DNA from: a bacterium
Lineage (GTDB): Bacteria; Cyanobacteriota; Vampirovibrionia; Gastranaerophilales; Gastranaerophilaceae
Assembly: GCA_017559905.1 (NCBI GenBank)
Contig: JAFYQF010000015.1
Coordinates: forward strand, 62,001 to 126,000
DNA: 64,000 bases
Direction: 5' to 3'
Shown here: positions 49,728 to 58,084 of the stretch, piece by piece
Position numbering within the stretch: the stretch's first letter is position 1
Layout of the letters: every line of letters begins with the position of its first letter
Notes under the pieces: model-generated
What the model was told of the DNA's origin: nothing
Seen by the model: only the letters and a program-made list of their open reading frames with translations
Database searches by the model: none
Program-made: the position numbers and the translations under genes

Positions 49728-51845
49728 TTATCTACCTAAAAGTCTCATAGCTTCCATTTCCATTTTGTTTGCACGATTTAAAGCTTGTTCAACAGTGCTT
49801 AAGTCAGGAGCTACTTCCGGTGGAACTTGAGATTGTGGTGATGGAATATATTTTGGTTTTACAACTTCTTGTGGAATACCGCATTCAGGAGATGGGATGT
49901 ATCTTTTTACCTGTTGTTGAGGTAATGTAGCTGATTGAGTTGTTGTAAGTTTATCTGAAGCGTCTTTGACTGTTGGTTTGTTAGGTAATGTTGCGCTTTG
50001 TTGTGGTCTATTTACATATTGATTAAGTAAATTGGTTGGAGATTGAGGAATATGAGTTGGTTGTTGAACTTTTTGAGTTGCTATTTTTGCCGCTTCTGCA
50101 GATTTTATAGCTTCTTCTAAAACTTTTTGTTCACCTGCATTTGGTGCTTTGGGTTCATTTTTTGTTTCTTCAGTGTCTTCATCTAATACAGATTTTGTTG
50201 GTCTGCCAACAAGTTTATGTACGCCTTGAGTTGTTAGTTTTGCTAGGAACGGTGAAATCATCATCATTGGGATTGCAAGTCTTAAAGGGACACCAGCAAG
50301 GTTCTTAAAGAAATTGCCTGATTTTCTTAACAAATTTAAATTCCATTTTGAAGCTGAACGTCTAGCTAATCTTGTTTCGTTACCTATGTTTATAGCTCCG
50401 CCAACTTTTTTCAATAATTTAGTGATTGGGTTTTTAACGTTTGCTTTAAGCATATCTTTAAGCGCTTTTTTACGAACTTTGTAAGTTGCTTTATCCGCAA
50501 GACGTCCAGCTTTAACATCTTCATTAAATTGTTTAAGGGCACTTCTGTATGCTTTTACTTGGTCAGTTGTCATTCCAGCATATTTCAAGCCACCAACTTT
50601 GTGCATAGCCATAATACCAAACGGTAATGCCATAAAGTAAGTGAAGTCATTAACAAATCTTTCAGCTAAAGTTTTGCCTTTTTCTCCAGAAGGAGCTTTG
50701 ATTGTATGAACAATCATATCAGCGAAGATGAAAGCTTGCATAGCTACTGCAATTTTTCCACCACCCCAACGGTTTGTGCAACCTTCCATTAGCCAGCCAA
50801 AACCTTTCGATAAAGTTTTGCCTAAAGTTGTAGAGTTACCTTTTCCTAATGTAGCTTTGTATTTGTTTAGGTATTCTAGTAATGAAACTTCTCTACCAAT
50901 TACGTGGTTGTTAAATTTGCCGTACCAACCGTTTCTTCTGCAGATACCTACTTTAATGTCACCACTTTTAGTAGCATTTTCTAGTGCCTTCATAACATCA
51001 TCTGCATGATCTAAAATGTTGCTTGTGATTTTTTTGTATTCGGCTACAGATTTGAAGCCTAATTTTTTAACTTTAACGTTGTATGCTAGTTTTTCTAACC
51101 CTTTTATGCCTTTTTGAGCTTCTAATTTTGCAATAATATTTTTGTCTACGCCTAATAGTTCTAATTCTTTCTTTTGTAACATTAGGGCTTTTTCTGCGTA
51201 TTTTTTACCTTTAAGAGTTTGAGTAAATGCATCAATATCGCCTTGTTTCATACCGTAGCGTTCAAGTTTTTGGGTGTTAACTTTTTTGCCAGTAATCCAA
51301 GATGCTTTATTAGAGTTGTCGCTAATAGGTTCTAGGTATTCATCAAAAACTTGTTTCATGTCCATTGCTAAATAACCGTGCAAGCCATTTGCTGGAGTCT
51401 TTGCGAATGCCCACTCAGGAGATGTTGAATGGTTTTTGATAGCGTATGCAATATCGCTTTTAGAAACAAGCTTATCCCATCCGTTTTGACCTTTGTTAAA
51501 AATTTTGTTAAAGAATTTGCCAACAGAAGTTCCATTCCATTTTTTAGCAACTCTATCACCCCAAGCTCCAACTTTTCCCATTGTTGTTTTGTCGTATTCT
51601 TTGGCACAATTTCTGTTGAAAACGTCCATTCCTTGTGCAATGCCATACCAAAGAGCTGTTCCTACGCCAGCTTTAAGTAACATATCTTGTTGCTCATTTG
51701 AAGAAGATGCATTAATTCTGTTTGCAACGTAGGTGTTGCCTGCAGATTGTTTAATCTTTTCAACATCAACTTCAATTGGAACTCCTTGTGAGTTCATTGC
51801 TTGCATTGGTATATGAGTTTGTTGTTGATAAATGTTACTAACCAT
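49728..51845 (-). CDS. Large hypothetical protein with hydrophobic segments and Gln/Pro-rich tail
   Basis: 705 residues from the ATG at 51845, which has AGGG just upstream; the frame is open further up without signals. Not recognised. The N-terminal 25 residues are polar and Gln-rich. A mildly hydrophobic segment (about 50-65, GVGTALWYGIAQGMD) is followed by a long basic helical region. Two hydrophobic stretches (about 375-420) and one (about 530-550) may be membrane segments. The last ~130 residues are rich in Pro, Gln, Ala and Thr with repeated elements (Y-I-P-S-P twice, S-A-T-L-P twice), probably disordered. Base composition is like its neighbours. Function unknown. Confidence 0.7.
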   Translation of the reverse strand: MVSNIYQQQTHIPMQAMNSQGVPIEVDVEKIKQSAGNTYVANRINASSSNEQQDMLLKAGVGTALWYGIAQGMDVFNRNCAKEYDKTTMGKVGAWGDRVAKKWNGTSVGKFFNKIFNKGQNGWDKLVSKSDIAYAIKNHSTSPEWAFAKTPANGLHGYLAMDMKQVFDEYLEPISDNSNKASWITGKKVNTQKLERYGMKQGDIDAFTQTLKGKKYAEKALMLQKKELELLGVDKNIIAKLEAQKGIKGLEKLAYNVKVKKLGFKSVAEYKKITSNILDHADDVMKALENATKSGDIKVGICRRNGWYGKFNNHVIGREVSLLEYLNKYKATLGKGNSTTLGKTLSKGFGWLMEGCTNRWGGGKIAVAMQAFIFADMIVHTIKAPSGEKGKTLAERFVNDFTYFMALPFGIMAMHKVGGLKYAGMTTDQVKAYRSALKQFNEDVKAGRLADKATYKVRKKALKDMLKANVKNPITKLLKKVGGAINIGNETRLARRSASKWNLNLLRKSGNFFKNLAGVPLRLAIPMMMISPFLAKLTTQGVHKLVGRPTKSVLDEDTEETKNEPKAPNAGEQKVLEEAIKSAEAAKIATQKVQQPTHIPQSPTNLLNQYVNRPQQSATLPNKPTVKDASDKLTTTQSATLPQQQVKRYIPSPECGIPQEVVKPKYIPSPQSQVPPEVAPDLSTVEQALNRANKMEMEAMRLLGR

Positions 51846-51976
51846 AATTTCCCTACGATTAACCCCTATATATAAATAAAAACATTTATCCTGATTTAAT
51901 TGCCTTTTGTGGGTGCAAAACAACTAAATTGTAAAGAAATGTAACAAAGAAATAATAGTATGAAATTTTAAAACAA

Positions 51977-52294: not shown

Positions 52295-52358
52295 GAGCAG
52301 AGGCACGAGCGAAGCGAGAGACAAAATAGAAATGGCGTTGGGTCGACAACGGCATTGA
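52295..52358 (+). repeat. 64-bp direct repeat, copy 1
   Basis: Starts GAGCAGAGGCACGAGCGAAG and ends GACAACGGCATTGA. It matches copy 2 at 52397-52460 at 60 of 64 positions and is richer in G+C than its surroundings. It contains the short imperfect repeat CGAGCGAAGCGAG. Confidence 0.9.
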
Positions 52359-52396
52359 AGATTTTGCGGTGCCGTTTAATGCGAGGAGTGTATGGA

Positions 52397-52460
52397 GAGC
52401 AGAGGTACGAGCGAAGCGAGAGACAAAATAGAAATGACGTTGTGCCGACAACGGCATTGA
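52397..52460 (+). repeat. 64-bp direct repeat, copy 2
   Basis: Second copy, 102 bases downstream of copy 1, with four substitutions. The 38 bases between the copies show no further repeat. Confidence 0.9.
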
Positions 52461-52527: not shown

Positions 52528-53730
52528 ATGTGTAATAAAATATCAACAGTAATATTATCAGAGTCAGAACAGACTAAAAATGTTCTTTCTTTGTATTTGC
52601 AAGAGTTTGGGAAGTTTACGTATTTAGAGGATGTTGTTGATTTTTCAGAAATCTTCAATATATTGTCAAGCTTGCCAAAATCAGTGCTGTTGGTAGATGT
52701 ATCTTTAAACCAGCCCAAATATGTTAATTTCATTGAGCATGTAGCATTAGCTTGTCCTTCATGTAAGATTATAGCAATTTCAGATTCCCCATCAGTTGAT
52801 GTGATTGTCAAGACAATGAGAGCTGGTGCAAAAGACTTTTTATCAGCGCCGATAATTAAGAGTGAATTATTTGATATTTTAGAGAAAATTAGTGCTTATT
52901 TTTCTGATGACAAACCAAAAGAAAACAAGTGCCGTGTGATTTCTGTTTTTTCTAATAAGGGCGGTATAGGTAAGACTTCGATTGCATCTAATTTGGCTTT
53001 GGAACTTGCAAGAATTACTAAAGAGAATGTTGCGTTGATTGATTTGAATTTTCAATCGGGTGATATTACTTCATTTTTAGATATGAAACCATCGTTTAAT
53101 ATTTCTTATATGCTTCAAAATTTAGACAAAATCAATGGTGAGTTTCTTTTAAATACATTAGAGAGGTATAAGGATACTAGTTTGTATGTGATAGCAGATC
53201 CACCGTGTTTTGGACAAGCGGGTAATATTACAAAACTTCAGGTGGCAAAATTCTTTGAAGTATTAAAAAATACATTTTCGTATGTGGTTGTTGATACAGA
53301 TTCTACGTTTGGTAGCAAGACTGTAGCGGCATTAGATAATTCTAATTTGATATTTTTACCGACTATTGTTAATTTGCCTGCGTTGCGTAATTGTCAACGA
53401 GTTTTGGACTTATTTGACAAGTTAGGTTATGACAGTGAAAAAACTCAAATAGTCATAAATCGTTTTATGGAAAACGATGAGATAAAAGTTGAAGATGTTG
53501 AAAAAGTTCTAGGAAAAGAAGTTTATTGGAAAATACCAAATAACTATTTTACTATGGTAGCTGCAATTAACAAGGGTGTGTCTGCCGCAGAAATAAATCC
53601 AGAATCAAATGTTGCATTGAGCTATAGAGAGTTTGCAATGTCAGTTTCGGATATGGTTTACAGAAAAAAACTTTTGAAAAAGTATGTAAATGATTCAAGG
53701 GATACTATTGATAACGTATTGAGGGATTAA
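52528..53730 (+). CDS. CpaE/TadZ-like ATPase with receiver-like N-terminal domain
   Basis: 400 residues. Residues 5-125 form a response-regulator-like domain: D57 stands at the phospho-acceptor position, but the N-terminal acidic pair is replaced by S-E-S-E and the conserved Lys-Pro by S-A-P, so it is probably a pseudo-receiver. Residues 135-370 are a ParA/MinD-type ATPase with the deviant Walker A NKGGIGKTS (about 143-151), VALIDLNFQSGDITSFLD and VVVDTDSTF. This is the architecture of CpaE/TadZ, which positions Tad pilus assembly at a pole. AGAGG precedes the ATG by six bases. It is directly followed by a CpaF-like gene; no other tad genes are in the window. Confidence 0.87.
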   Translation: MCNKISTVILSESEQTKNVLSLYLQEFGKFTYLEDVVDFSEIFNILSSLPKSVLLVDVSLNQPKYVNFIEHVALACPSCKIIAISDSPSVDVIVKTMRAGAKDFLSAPIIKSELFDILEKISAYFSDDKPKENKCRVISVFSNKGGIGKTSIASNLALELARITKENVALIDLNFQSGDITSFLDMKPSFNISYMLQNLDKINGEFLLNTLERYKDTSLYVIADPPCFGQAGNITKLQVAKFFEVLKNTFSYVVVDTDSTFGSKTVAALDNSNLIFLPTIVNLPALRNCQRVLDLFDKLGYDSEKTQIVINRFMENDEIKVEDVEKVLGKEVYWKIPNNYFTMVAAINKGVSAAEINPESNVALSYREFAMSVSDMVYRKKLLKKYVNDSRDTIDNVLRD

Positions 53731-54993
53731 ATGACATTAAGTGCCAGATTAAGAAAGATTGATAAAGATTCGAAACACAATGTTGAAATCGTAGAAGAAG
53801 TTCCGTTTTCAGAATATATAATGGAAGCTCTTTCAAAAAAGGTTTCAGCGATACCTGTGTGGAATGAATATGATTATGTTAAGCAATTTGAACTAGTATT
53901 GAGCTTTTTAGAGAACAAGTTAGATACTGAATTTGTTGACGTAAGACTTACTGAAGCTGAAAGAAAAGTTTTAGCAGAGAATTTTTTGAAAACAAATAAT
54001 GGTTTTGGTTTATTAGATAGATTTTTAGCAAAACCTGATGTAAGTGCTGTTATGGTTAATTCCTTTGGGTCTATATATGTCCAAGAATGTGACGAATTTA
54101 AAAAGACTGCAAGCGTTTTAAGTGAAAGTCAATTTTTTGAGATTACTGCAAAATATAGAAGTGACTCACCGATTGTGAGGGTTCGTCAAGGTAAATTGTT
54201 TATTACAATTATGAAACCTCCAGTTTCGGATAATATGATTATTATAAAGAAGATAAAAGATATAAACGAGGACTTAAGTGATTTGCCAGCAATTGGGCAA
54301 ATAACTGCTGGGATTGCATCATTTTTTAGATTTTTGTTAACTCAAAGAAAAAATATTGTAATTTCAGGACTCTCAAACGCAAGTATCTGTGAGTTTGTTC
54401 AAATCCTTCAGAATTCATTGTCTGACAACGCTAGAATTGCTATTATTGAAGATAGCGGATTTTATCGTCCTGCGTTAGATAATGTGTCATCTTTTTCAGT
54501 GTCATCGTTAGATGAGTTGGATTATGAATTTTTGTTGGATTCTGTAAATAGTTTAAGTTCTGATTATGTAATTGCTGATATTTCAGATAATCGTAAGTTT
54601 ATTTCGTATTATTCTCAATTGTCTACGACTGATAAGGGTATTATTACCGCAGTGAAAGCAGAAAATGTAGATGAGGCTTCTGCAAAATTCATTAATGCGT
54701 CTATGGTTTCGTCAAAATGTACTGAAAAACAAGCTAAAACACGATTTGCAGGGATTTATGATTATGTAATACATGTTGAAAACGTAAAAGGTATTGGGTT
54801 TAGAGTTGATTCTGTAATGGAAGTCACTTCATCTAAAACTACTGCACTTGTTATGAATGAGATTGTGAAGTTTGTTGATGGTGTGTTTGTTCTTGATTTG
54901 CCTGAAGAATTCGTGGCTCGGGAACACGAATATCAAGTTTCTTCTGTTCCTGTTCGACCTGCAAGGTCTTTCCGTGCTCGTTTGAAATCTTAA
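53731..54993 (+). CDS. CpaF/VirB11-like secretion ATPase homologue lacking the P-loop
   Basis: 420 residues, starting directly after the stop of the CpaE-like gene. The N-terminal domain fits CpaF: GLLDRFLAKPDVSAVMVNSFGSIYV (about 93-117), then a short version of the P-P segment (MKPPVSDN). In the ATPase domain QRKNIVISGLSNASIC (about 205-220) aligns with R-x-N-I-L-I-S-G-G-T-G-S-G-K-T, but the glycines and the lysine-threonine are gone; IAIIED matches the later E-R-I-V-T-I-E-D. The His box and the G-E-V-R-G arginine region are also unrecognisable. It is therefore probably unable to hydrolyse ATP and may act as a structural subunit or regulator. The last 143 bases overlap a gene on the other strand. 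Confidence 0.78.
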   Translation: MTLSARLRKIDKDSKHNVEIVEEVPFSEYIMEALSKKVSAIPVWNEYDYVKQFELVLSFLENKLDTEFVDVRLTEAERKVLAENFLKTNNGFGLLDRFLAKPDVSAVMVNSFGSIYVQECDEFKKTASVLSESQFFEITAKYRSDSPIVRVRQGKLFITIMKPPVSDNMIIIKKIKDINEDLSDLPAIGQITAGIASFFRFLLTQRKNIVISGLSNASICEFVQILQNSLSDNARIAIIEDSGFYRPALDNVSSFSVSSLDELDYEFLLDSVNSLSSDYVIADISDNRKFISYYSQLSTTDKGIITAVKAENVDEASAKFINASMVSSKCTEKQAKTRFAGIYDYVIHVENVKGIGFRVDSVMEVTSSKTTALVMNEIVKFVDGVFVLDLPEEFVAREHEYQVSSVPVRPARSFRARLKS

Positions 54994-55990
54994 ATGATTT
55001 ATAATTTGAATATTCGTTGAGATGTTTTACGTGTAAACGAAGTAGATTACCGTCTTTGATACGGTTTTCTATTATATCCATTTGGGGATCAATGTATTTG
55101 GGCATAATTATGTTGTTTACCAAATTATTCATTGGCTTGTATAGTACTGCCAATGTAACAATACCGCCTAAAGTTTTGATTAGTTTGTTTTTGAAAATTA
55201 ATTTATTTTGGTGAGTTTCTAATGCTGATTTGAGTGCTTGAAGTGCATAGTCCTCACCATAGATTTCTTTCATTAGTGGCTTCGAATTTTTATATTTGTT
55301 GTAGATGTATTTTGGTATTTTATCAATGTTTTTATTTTGCTCAAGGTTTTCTTTTAGCTCAAAGATCTCTTTAGCGTTTTCTTCTGCAAATAGTAGTAAT
55401 TTGTTTCTATCTGCGTCTGAAGCTGCGTAATAACCTGTCATGTAGCGATATGCTTTTTGAAAAATATTTATATTCCCTTTTTCGTGGTTAAGGCGGTTTA
55501 TATTGTTTCTTAAAGACGTTTTTAATAGCGAAACGAATTTCTCTTTGCTCGATAAGTTGTCACCTACGCATTGAATAATTGCATTTTTGGTGTGTTCATA
55601 AACTGTCTCTCTTGCGTTAATTGAAAGTTTTCCGCTGATTAGTTTTCCTATCGGAGAAGTTATTTTTTGTCCCAAAATGATTGCGCCTGCTGGCATGATA
55701 AATGATGTAAAACCTTGCGCTATCGCTTCATCTAAAGCTCGTCTTCTGCTTGGAGAATATTCTGTTTTGTCGTTTTTATATTTGTCATAAATGTCTGCAC
55801 CCAGATACATAAATGTTGGTATCCAAAGTGCAAATGTGGTTTTGGGAGATATTTCATTCACACAAGCTCCAAGTTCGTTTGAAAATGACAAACTCTTAAG
55901 AACCCAGTTGTTTAAAGGGTCTTTGTATTTTTTCTCTTGAGAATATTTACTTGATGTTTGTGTTTTGACAGGTTCAATCCCTACAGGCAT
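54851..55990 (-). CDS. Hypothetical protein with hydrophobic segments
   Basis: 379 residues from the ATG at 55990; the frame is open upstream to 56092 but that part reads like non-coding sequence. Not recognised. Hydrophobic segments at about 55-75 (TFALWIPTFMYLGAD), 100-120 and 300-325 alternate with Lys/Asn-rich helices. The last ~45 residues are Gln/His-rich (QANQEQTHHQQTSQ). That tail is encoded opposite the last 143 bases of the CpaF-like gene, so either the stop codon was lost and the frame ran on, or both ends are functional. In general build it resembles the unknown at 49728. The ribosome binding site is weak. Confidence 0.62.
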   Translation of the reverse strand: MPVGIEPVKTQTSSKYSQEKKYKDPLNNWVLKSLSFSNELGACVNEISPKTTFALWIPTFMYLGADIYDKYKNDKTEYSPSRRRALDEAIAQGFTSFIMPAGAIILGQKITSPIGKLISGKLSINARETVYEHTKNAIIQCVGDNLSSKEKFVSLLKTSLRNNINRLNHEKGNINIFQKAYRYMTGYYAASDADRNKLLLFAEENAKEIFELKENLEQNKNIDKIPKYIYNKYKNSKPLMKEIYGEDYALQALKSALETHQNKLIFKNKLIKTLGGIVTLAVLYKPMNNLVNNIIMPKYIDPQMDIIENRIKDGNLLRLHVKHLNEYSNYKSFKISNEHGKTLQVEQEQKKLDIRVPEPRILQANQEQTHHQQTSQSHS

Positions 55991-56086
55991 GTTCAATATC
56001 CAATAACTATCTTTCCATTTATATAATGCACGAAAATAATATTTTTTGCTATGGAAAACTAAATAAATTTGATATAAAATTTTGCT

Positions 56087-58084
56087 ATGCAATATCGTGA
56101 GTTCAAAATAAATTCAAAATATTCTCCTGCAGGAGATCAACCAAAAGCAATCGAGGCTTTGGTAAATGGCATTTTAGAAGGGCAAGATACTCAAACTTTG
56201 CTTGGTATTACTGGCTCTGGTAAAACTTTTACAATTGCTAATGTAATAGAAAAAGTTCAAAAGCCAACTCTTATTATTGCGCATAACAAAACTCTTGCGG
56301 CTCAATTGTATAATGAATTTAAAGAACTGTTTCCTGATAATGCTGTTGAATATTTCATCAGTTATTACGATTATTATCAGCCAGAGGCTTATATTCCGAG
56401 AACAGATACTTATATTGAAAAATCTGCATCTATAAACGATGAGATTGATAGATTACGACATAATACAACAAGAAGTCTATATGAGCGTAATGATGTTATT
56501 ATAGTAGCGTCAGTAAGTTGCATTTATGGTTTAGGTTTGCCTGAAAATTATTTCAGAGGTTCTGTTGAATTAAAAGTTGGTGATGAAGTTGAAAGAGATG
56601 ATTTGTTAAGGCATTTGGTGAGTGTTCAATATACTAGAAATGATTTGGTTCTTGAGCGTGCAACTTTTAGAGCTAGAGGCGATATTGTTGAGATAATGCC
56701 GGCTTATGAAAAAACAGTCACAAGAATTTATTTCTTTGGTGATGAGATTGAAAAGATTGTTAGAATAGATAATGTTTCGGGCGAAATTATTGAAACTCCC
56801 GAAAGTGTTGTGATTTATCCTGCAGTACATTATTTGTCTTATGATGATAATACTGAAGAAACTTTAGATTTGATTAGACAAGAACTGTCAGTAAGGTTAG
56901 CTGAATTGAATTCCCAGAATAAAATCGTTGAAGCTCAAAGACTTTCTCAAAGAGTTAAGTACGATATTGAGATGATAAAGGAAATGGGCTATTGTTCTGG
57001 TATTGAAAATTATTCACGAATTATAGAACGCAGAGCTCCAGGTTCTCCTCCTGCAACCTTGTTAGATTATTTTCAGGGAGATTTTTTAACTGTAGTTGAT
57101 GAATCTCACGTTACGCTACCTCAACTTAAAGGAATGTCGCATGGAGATGCTGCTCGTAAAGATACTCTTGTTGAATATGGGTTCAGATTGCCTTGTGCAA
57201 AAGATAATAGACCTTTAACCAGTGAGGAGTTCTATGCAAGAGTAGGTCAGAAAATTTATATTTCCGCTACTCCAGGTGAGTTTGAACGTAAAACTTCAAT
57301 AAATATGGTTGAACAAATTATTCGTCCGACTGGGCTTGTTGACCCTAAAATTAGTGTGCGTCCAATAGATACTCAAATTAATGATTTGAAAGCTGAAATC
57401 AAAAAACGTACTGATAAAGATGAACGTGTATTGATTACTACGCTTACTAAAAAAATGGCTGAAGATTTAACTGATTTCTTCGTTCAAGAAGGTATAAAAG
57501 TTAGATATTTGCATTCGGAAATTCAGTCGCTTGAACGCGTTGAAATATTAAGAGACTTAAGGCTTGGAACATTTGATGTTTTAATCGGTGTAAACTTGCT
57601 TCGTGAGGGGTTGGATATCCCTGAAGTTTCTCTTGTTGCAATTATGGATGCAGACAAGGAAGGCTTTTTGCGCAGTGAAACAAGTTTAATCCAAACAATA
57701 GGACGTGCTGCAAGAAATTCTTGTGGTGAAGTTATAATGTATGCTGATAGAATTACTGATAGTATGCAAAATGCTATTAATGAAACTAATCGTCGTAGAG
57801 AAATTCAAATTGCTCATAATAATAAATACGGAATTGTTCCGCAAACTATTAAAAAGCCTATTGAAAATAATCTTTTGTCACTAGTAGCTAGTTATCGGGA
57901 TTTGGAAGATATTGTTGCAGAAGAAATGGTTGATTTAGGTATTGATAAAAAAGGCTTGCCGAAATTAATCGACAAGCTTGAAAAAGATATGCATAAAGCT
58001 GCAAAAGTTCTTGATTTTGAACGTGCAGCTGAAATTAGAGATCAGCTAAAAAAATTGAGAGAACTTATCGATTCCAATACCTAG
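56087..58084 (+). CDS. uvrB: Excinuclease ABC subunit B
   Basis: DNA-damage-binding helicase subunit of nucleotide excision repair; 665 residues, full length. [16 protein letters not shown] is Walker [16 protein letters not shown] the beta-hairpin region that clamps [15 protein letters not shown] the DEXH box, [16 protein letters not shown] and [12 protein letters not shown] helicase motifs IV-VI, and [22 protein letters not shown] the C-terminal UVR motif that binds UvrC. No ribosome binding site is seen; TGATATAAA ends eight bases before the ATG, suggesting a very short leader. The end overlaps the converging membrane protein gene by 20 bases. Confidence 0.97.

Follow-up and report, generated by a model that had tools for sequence, protein, structure and literature searches.

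Two genes on the plus strand lay directly one after the other in the window, the stretch of 64,000 nucleotides analysed in this work: a gene encoding a CpaE/TadZ-like protein of 400 amino acids (52528..53730), composed of a degenerate receiver domain and a ParA/MinD-type ATPase, and a gene encoding a protein of 420 amino acids (53731..54993), here called F, a CpaF-fold pseudo-motor whose P-loop is lost. The TAA stop of cpaE directly abutted the ATG of F, both open reading frames being placed back to back in one frame, and the cpaE-cpaF order at 52528-54993, proposed in an earlier sequence-only reading, was found with both ORFs exactly where that reading had put them. Upstream of cpaE, the intergenic region 52300-52460 contained a stretch of about 60 bases (GAGG.ACGAGCGAAGCGAGAGACAAAATAGAAATG.CGTTG...CGACAACGGCATTGA) twice, around 100 bases apart, with small hairpins. 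On the other side, 143 bases at the 3' end of F were shared with a convergent minus-strand ORF (54851-56092). The product of this ORF and the protein encoded at 49728-51923 were syntenic in relatives and showed no significant Pfam family. These flanking lineage-specific proteins were rejected as obligate partners of the pair, though both were often syntenic, because the first was missing beside most of the loci with a short F (described below) and the second changed orientation.

Profile searches revealed a CbiA/AAA_31 ATPase domain and a REC/TadZ_N-like N-terminus in the first protein, which fits CpaE/TadZ by its domain order (REC-like, then deviant Walker A ATPase) and by being encoded upstream of cpaF, and which shared one tree with the CpaE proteins of complete Tad operons. 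The deviant Walker A motif announced in the sequence-only reading was present as KGGIGKT (residues 144-150, 52957..52977, plus strand), and K144, K149, T150, D172 and D256 were invariant in all pilus-less rows. The deviant Walker A and the catalytic aspartates that characterize A/D ATPases are thus intact, and CpaE is probably still a working ParA/MinD-type ATP switch, a claim that shares the probability given below for the two-protein explanation as a whole. The receiver domain, by contrast, lacked its key lysine, as had also been noticed: the codon at 52846..52848 (plus strand) encodes Ala107 at the switch-lysine position, where 16 of 19 Tad-bearing relatives have Lys and where pilus-less rows have mostly lost it. 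The C-terminal tail was shortened as well, from a mean of about 34 residues to 15-18 in pilus-less rows.

MinD and the actinobacterial Ssd were among the best-scoring families for CpaE, which would fit an action of the pair in cell division or polarity control, like that of the mycobacterial CpaE homologue Ssd, a protein promoting filamentation in M. tuberculosis (PMC3095998). Such a role seems unlikely: the scores were far below the curated cut-offs (34.5 bits vs. 154 for Ssd, CpaE_hom_Actino), no division gene was adjacent, and the genome encodes its own MinC and MinD. The presence of these two proteins also led us to reject CpaE as a simple MinD replacement.

F showed no Pfam match at E≤1, weak NCBIfam matches to VirB11/TadA/TrbB, and, in a phmmer search against solved structures, a match to CpaF only (E 0.02). 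Its AlphaFold2 model, built from 45 sequences (pLDDT 86.8, pTM 0.78), was closest in Foldseek to CpaF (8rkd, 8rjf and 9e24, E 1e-23 to 1e-22), followed by GspE, FlaI and VirB11, and predicted a complete CpaF fold: NTD1, NTD2 and the RecA-like CTD. A good match to a non-VirB11 family, which the sequence-only reading had named as an outcome that would speak against it, was rejected, the best folds being CpaF. The names NTD0 and NTD1 are those of Caulobacter CpaF, in which NTD0 is disordered and NTD1 is a three-helix motif (PMC11300603). The parts of F (all on the plus strand) were as follows: the N-terminal peptide MTLSARLRK (53731..53757; motif M-x-[LFI]-x-x-R-[LFI]-[KR], with R6 invariant in the 45-row alignment and a predicted helix at residues 3-13); the three-helix NTD1 (53806..53994; helices 26-40, 49-66 and 75-88), the part usually kept in short relatives; an NTD2-like alpha/beta domain (54001..54270; residues 91-180); a C-terminal RecA-like domain without catalytic motifs (54271..54915; residues 181-395); and a C-terminal peptide, FRARLK (54970..54987), which resembles the N-terminal motif and has a short predicted helix (414-419).

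The working hexameric ATPase set comprises Walker A, Walker B, Asp box, Arg residues and His box, and F retained the Asp-box Glu-Asp only (E240 D241, invariant in the genus). The P-loop was reduced to the remnant GLSNASIC (residues 213-220, 54367..54390, plus strand), and other residues stood in place of the Walker B Glu, all three Arg of LRMRPDR and the His of the His box. The earlier description of a CpaF homologue with GLSNASIC as its P-loop and with neither Walker B nor His box was accurate, and the loss extended to the Arg residues. Judged by its fold and motifs, F is a CpaF descendant and not a working member of the CpaF/TadA motors.

The Gastranaerophilales genome (1.84 Mb in 26 contigs, about 100% complete) had no Tad genes near the pair, and TadB/TadC and Tad-type CpaC were absent from the whole of it. 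The weaker secretin match was a 625-amino acid PilQ/GspD-type protein. There was no second CpaF, a check that the sequence-only reading had proposed for a copy with an intact P-loop: the other T2SSE-family matches in the genome were the type IVa pilus proteins PilT/PilU and PilB, and a second functional CpaF elsewhere was rejected on these grounds. Two observations were made on PilB-like genes. A 458-amino acid PilB-like protein with a GSPLSGKT loop and a C-terminal part unlike the PilB profile (L003:982-2355; G000:C25, about 62.7-64.0 kb) was encoded directly after a response regulator gene, and is possibly a second degraded secretion ATPase. Near-identical PilB C-terminal pieces with few residue differences were found at two contig ends (L004 and L005; the end of G000:C25 and the start of C10), representing an assembly break or two copies.

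The type IVa pilus still encoded (PilB, PilC, PilT/PilU, PilQ) could be what the pair serves, e.g. through its placement in the cell, CpaE being a pilus-machine component by origin. We consider this improbable, since no type IVa pilus gene was located near the pair, and since families f6 and f7 as well as genera g9 and g10, all without CpaE and F, likewise encoded a PilQ/GspD-type secretin of about 600 amino acids, with one incomplete genome of the two families as the exception. The PilQ-type secretin and CpaE/F do not track each other, which makes this pilus a weak candidate client.

Named relatives of the locus belonged to Candidatus Gastranaerophilales / Melainabacteria, mostly gut metagenome bins. 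Two records carrying this Gastranaerophilales locus had organism names that look wrong: Fusobacterium sp. CAG:439 (L096) and uncultured Brachyspira RUG745 (L082). Intact cpaC-cpaE-cpaF-tadB-tadC operons were found in four genera belonging to the same family (G024, G027, G028, G035), as well as in further families of the order. Upstream of them lay cpaB wherever the contig extended far enough, and the motor P-loop was intact (GGTG[SA]GKT); the descent of the pair from a Tad operon is clear from these full operons. CpaE, scored as present at E≤1e-60, was detected in 301 of 383 family genomes (38 of 41 genera), and TadB/TadC in 33 of 383 (7 of 41 genera), all 33 of which also had CpaE, leaving 268 family genomes with CpaE and no TadB/TadC platform. 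In the tree of 112 CpaE sequences, the states of F were strongly clustered (14 changes vs. 60 in shuffles), and 86 pilus-less rows formed a well supported clade (100), with the Tad-bearing rows of the family outside it. A few further pilus-less genera branched elsewhere with weak support, so that one to several losses of Tad are possible.

The sequence-only reading had stated that no other pilus gene is near, which was true of the locus and, for TadB/TadC and Tad-type CpaC, of the entire genome; its suggestion that the pair is detached from pilus assembly is strongly supported by the genome-wide disappearance of the platform and Tad secretin genes, together with the intact ancestral operon in sister genera.

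F was found downstream of CpaE in 110 of the 112 distinct CpaE rows, counting that of L127, first scored as F-less but having a short F; CpaE stood alone only in L176 and L178. Thirty-eight distinct rows, a class defined by GK[TS], kept this motif in F; the Walker B Glu was missing from all of them, and other residues mostly stood at the Arg and His-box positions. A full-length F with a lost P-loop characterized the genus of the window and a few others. In 33 rows (L127 excluded) F was shorter than 200 amino acids: 98-152 amino acids, save for an 85-amino acid piece at a contig end. Most of these short proteins matched the profile at positions 1-91, which span the N-terminal peptide plus NTD1, and were still encoded directly after cpaE, and in several loci uvrB began about 35 bp further on, too close for the remainder of CpaF to fit in between; the short F is therefore not a frameshift remnant. 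In L177 and L180 it was NTD1 that had gone, the peptides at both ends and a P-loop-like stretch being preserved, so what is retained of F varies. Three loci (L182, L183 and L184, from genera g13, g18 and g21) had a very fast-evolving CpaE and an F of 472-600 amino acids with the N-terminal motif and little else recognisable.

All 13 same-genus relatives that were searched had F, although in G013 just a C-terminal piece of it was present, at the end of a contig. The pair was adjacent and had no internal stops in the window and in the 12 genus-mates whose contig covers it; identity to the proteins of the window was 69-73% for CpaE and 39-50% for F, and the gene order downstream through uvrB was the same wherever the contig reached. 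The dN/dS values are rough, many pairs being close to saturation at synonymous sites. Close pairs within the genus, drawn from L031-L036, gave 0.04-0.05 for CpaE and 0.10-0.14 for F, and a wider pair gave 0.20 for F; over all these pairs the ranges were 0.04-0.06 for CpaE and 0.10-0.20 for F. In the close pairs the first 100 residues of F gave 0.03-0.055 and the ATPase region 0.09-0.19, an order that was reversed in two Tad-bearing pairs (N-terminus 0.10-0.13, ATPase 0.007-0.03). Divergence relative to CpaE told the same parts of F apart: 0.43 in Tad genomes vs. 2.09 in the window's genus for the C-terminal domain, and 1.48 vs. 1.23 for NTD0+1, the ATPase domain of F evolving about 5 times faster, relative to CpaE, than in pilus-bearing relatives. 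The class keeping GKT had values of about 2 in all regions, and the shift of constraint to the N-terminus was thus clearest in the window's genus.

These values indicate that F is under purifying selection in the window's genus. It is very improbable that the pair is a functionless leftover of the Tad operon undergoing slow decay, with the graded loss of F as neutral erosion. A divergence of F around twice that of CpaE, the repeated partial deletions and the lack of CpaE in genera g9 and g10 would be compatible with erosion, but the complete genus copies had no stops or frameshifts, both genes had the low dN/dS given above, the CpaE active site was invariant, the short F of one clade had a dN/dS of about 0.02-0.04, and CpaE persisted in 268 platform-less genomes. 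Random decay or a single broken genome, the latter raised by the sequence-only reading itself as a possible objection, was rejected on the conservation of the pair and on dN/dS.

The N-terminal motif was shared by practically every F in all states, including the CpaF of complete Tad operons: M-x-[LFI]-x-x-R-[LFI], then mostly Lys, Arg or Asn. The real exceptions were a class-level outgroup (L064) and L144. Among other long ORFs its regular expression had a match rate of 3.5%, and it matched no CpaE. A search of the genome for other genes opening with the motif gave five pattern matches, none at a called ORF start, with a pattern that is stricter than the motif and misses the F of the window. 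A motif-like peptide, F-x-x-R-[LF], ended many full-length F proteins.

In character the motif is close to short amphipathic membrane anchors, and its target could be lipid instead of CpaE, in which case F would tether the tail-reduced CpaE to the inner membrane as a membrane-bound switch. The predicted helix 3-13, with Leu3, Leu7 and Ile10 on one face and Arg/Lys between (the face being judged from sequence), and the shortened CpaE tails of pilus-less rows point in this direction; however, the motif is very short, its invariant residue is the Arg and not the hydrophobic ones, and it also occurs in Tad-bearing genomes where the CpaE tail is present. We hold this possibility to be doubtful.

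The partner proteins of ParA/MinD (A/D) ATPases rely for their action on a charged, disordered N-terminus and bind cargo with the remainder of the chain (PMC10241942). F has a conserved basic N-terminal peptide of this kind, and this resemblance favours it as the cognate partner or regulator of CpaE. In the Caulobacter Tad machine, six CpaE dimers have been fitted around the CpaF hexamer, with a predicted contact (PMC13170226). Our preferred explanation, to which we assign a probability of about 0.6, is that two proteins of a lost Tad pilus were retained as a module, CpaE as ATP switch and F as its partner. After the loss of the pilus, CpaE would have stayed a working ParA/MinD-type switch, and the N-terminal arginine peptide of F (M-x-L-x-x-R-L/F-K), usually carried on the three-helix NTD1, would most likely dock on the ATP-bound CpaE dimer and there control the ATPase cycle or link CpaE to a client, as do the charged N-terminal peptides of ParB, MinE and McdB. 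The former motor domain would have lost Walker B, Arg and His-box residues, and in some lineages the P-loop too; it would have been deleted in others and kept in the window's genus as a catalytically dead scaffold, motor activity being dispensable. By analogy with these systems we infer a contact between CpaE and F, control of the ATPase, and a spatial role or cargo; together the two proteins probably have a separate function that has nothing to do with pilus making.

The sequence-only reading had proposed a former motor turned into an adaptor. The first half holds, F being a former CpaF motor with its catalysis lost, but the ATPase domain is not the element generally retained: it evolves fast and is deleted in many lineages, whereas the N-terminal peptide and usually NTD1 are kept, so F looks more like an N-terminal partner or regulator of CpaE. 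Against the partner model stand the absence of NTD1 in L177 and L180 and the CpaE without F in L176 and L178. AlphaFold2 prediction of CpaE and F as one read-through chain (20 sequences, CpaE as a monomer, no ATP) gave a pTM of 0.44, a pLDDT of 30-37 for the motif and no confident interface.

Compared with known systems, the pair is like CpaE/TadZ and CpaF/TadA of the Tad (type IVc) pilus in its gene order, the complete CpaF fold, the REC-ATPase order of CpaE and its descent via the sister-genus operon, and differs in the lost Walker A, Walker B, Arg and His box of F, in the lost receiver Lys and reduced C-terminal tail of CpaE, and in a genome lacking TadB/TadC, CpaB and Tad-type CpaC. It shares with ParA-ParB, MinD-MinE and McdA-McdB a deviant Walker A ATPase beside a partner with a conserved basic N-terminal peptide, but here the putative partner is a former pilus motor. 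In BcsQ-BcsR of cellulose secretion, a MinD-like ATPase is encoded with a very small protein. A CpaE with an F of about 100 amino acids is similar, but no cellulose genes were seen near the pair and the small F derives from CpaF. Ssd of Actinobacteria is CpaE-like too, and a role other than in pilus assembly has been reported for it (PMC3095998), but the CpaE of the window scored far below the cut-off of that family. A description of a pilus-less CpaE-F pair was not found in the open-licence literature searched; the pair is a variant of Tad CpaE/CpaF and of A/D ATPase systems, and not a new class.

It is usually the catalytic core that defines a secretion-motor ATPase. The natural deletion series found here strips this core and leaves the N-terminal region beside CpaE, a pointer to the role that CpaF has for CpaE besides pumping pilins. 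The cooperation of CpaE/TadZ with CpaF, a poorly understood question of Tad biology, becomes directly testable with very small proteins. It is conceivable, though we put it somewhat below even odds, that two parts of a lost pilus, CpaE and the N-terminus of its former motor as a dedicated partner, cut to about 100 residues in parallel lineages, form a self-standing ATPase switch, so that most genera of a Gastranaerophilales family would possess a new system of intracellular positioning or regulation. This would clearly exemplify the survival of a positioning-type ATPase beyond the machine that it served, in a widespread and mostly uncultured gut lineage.
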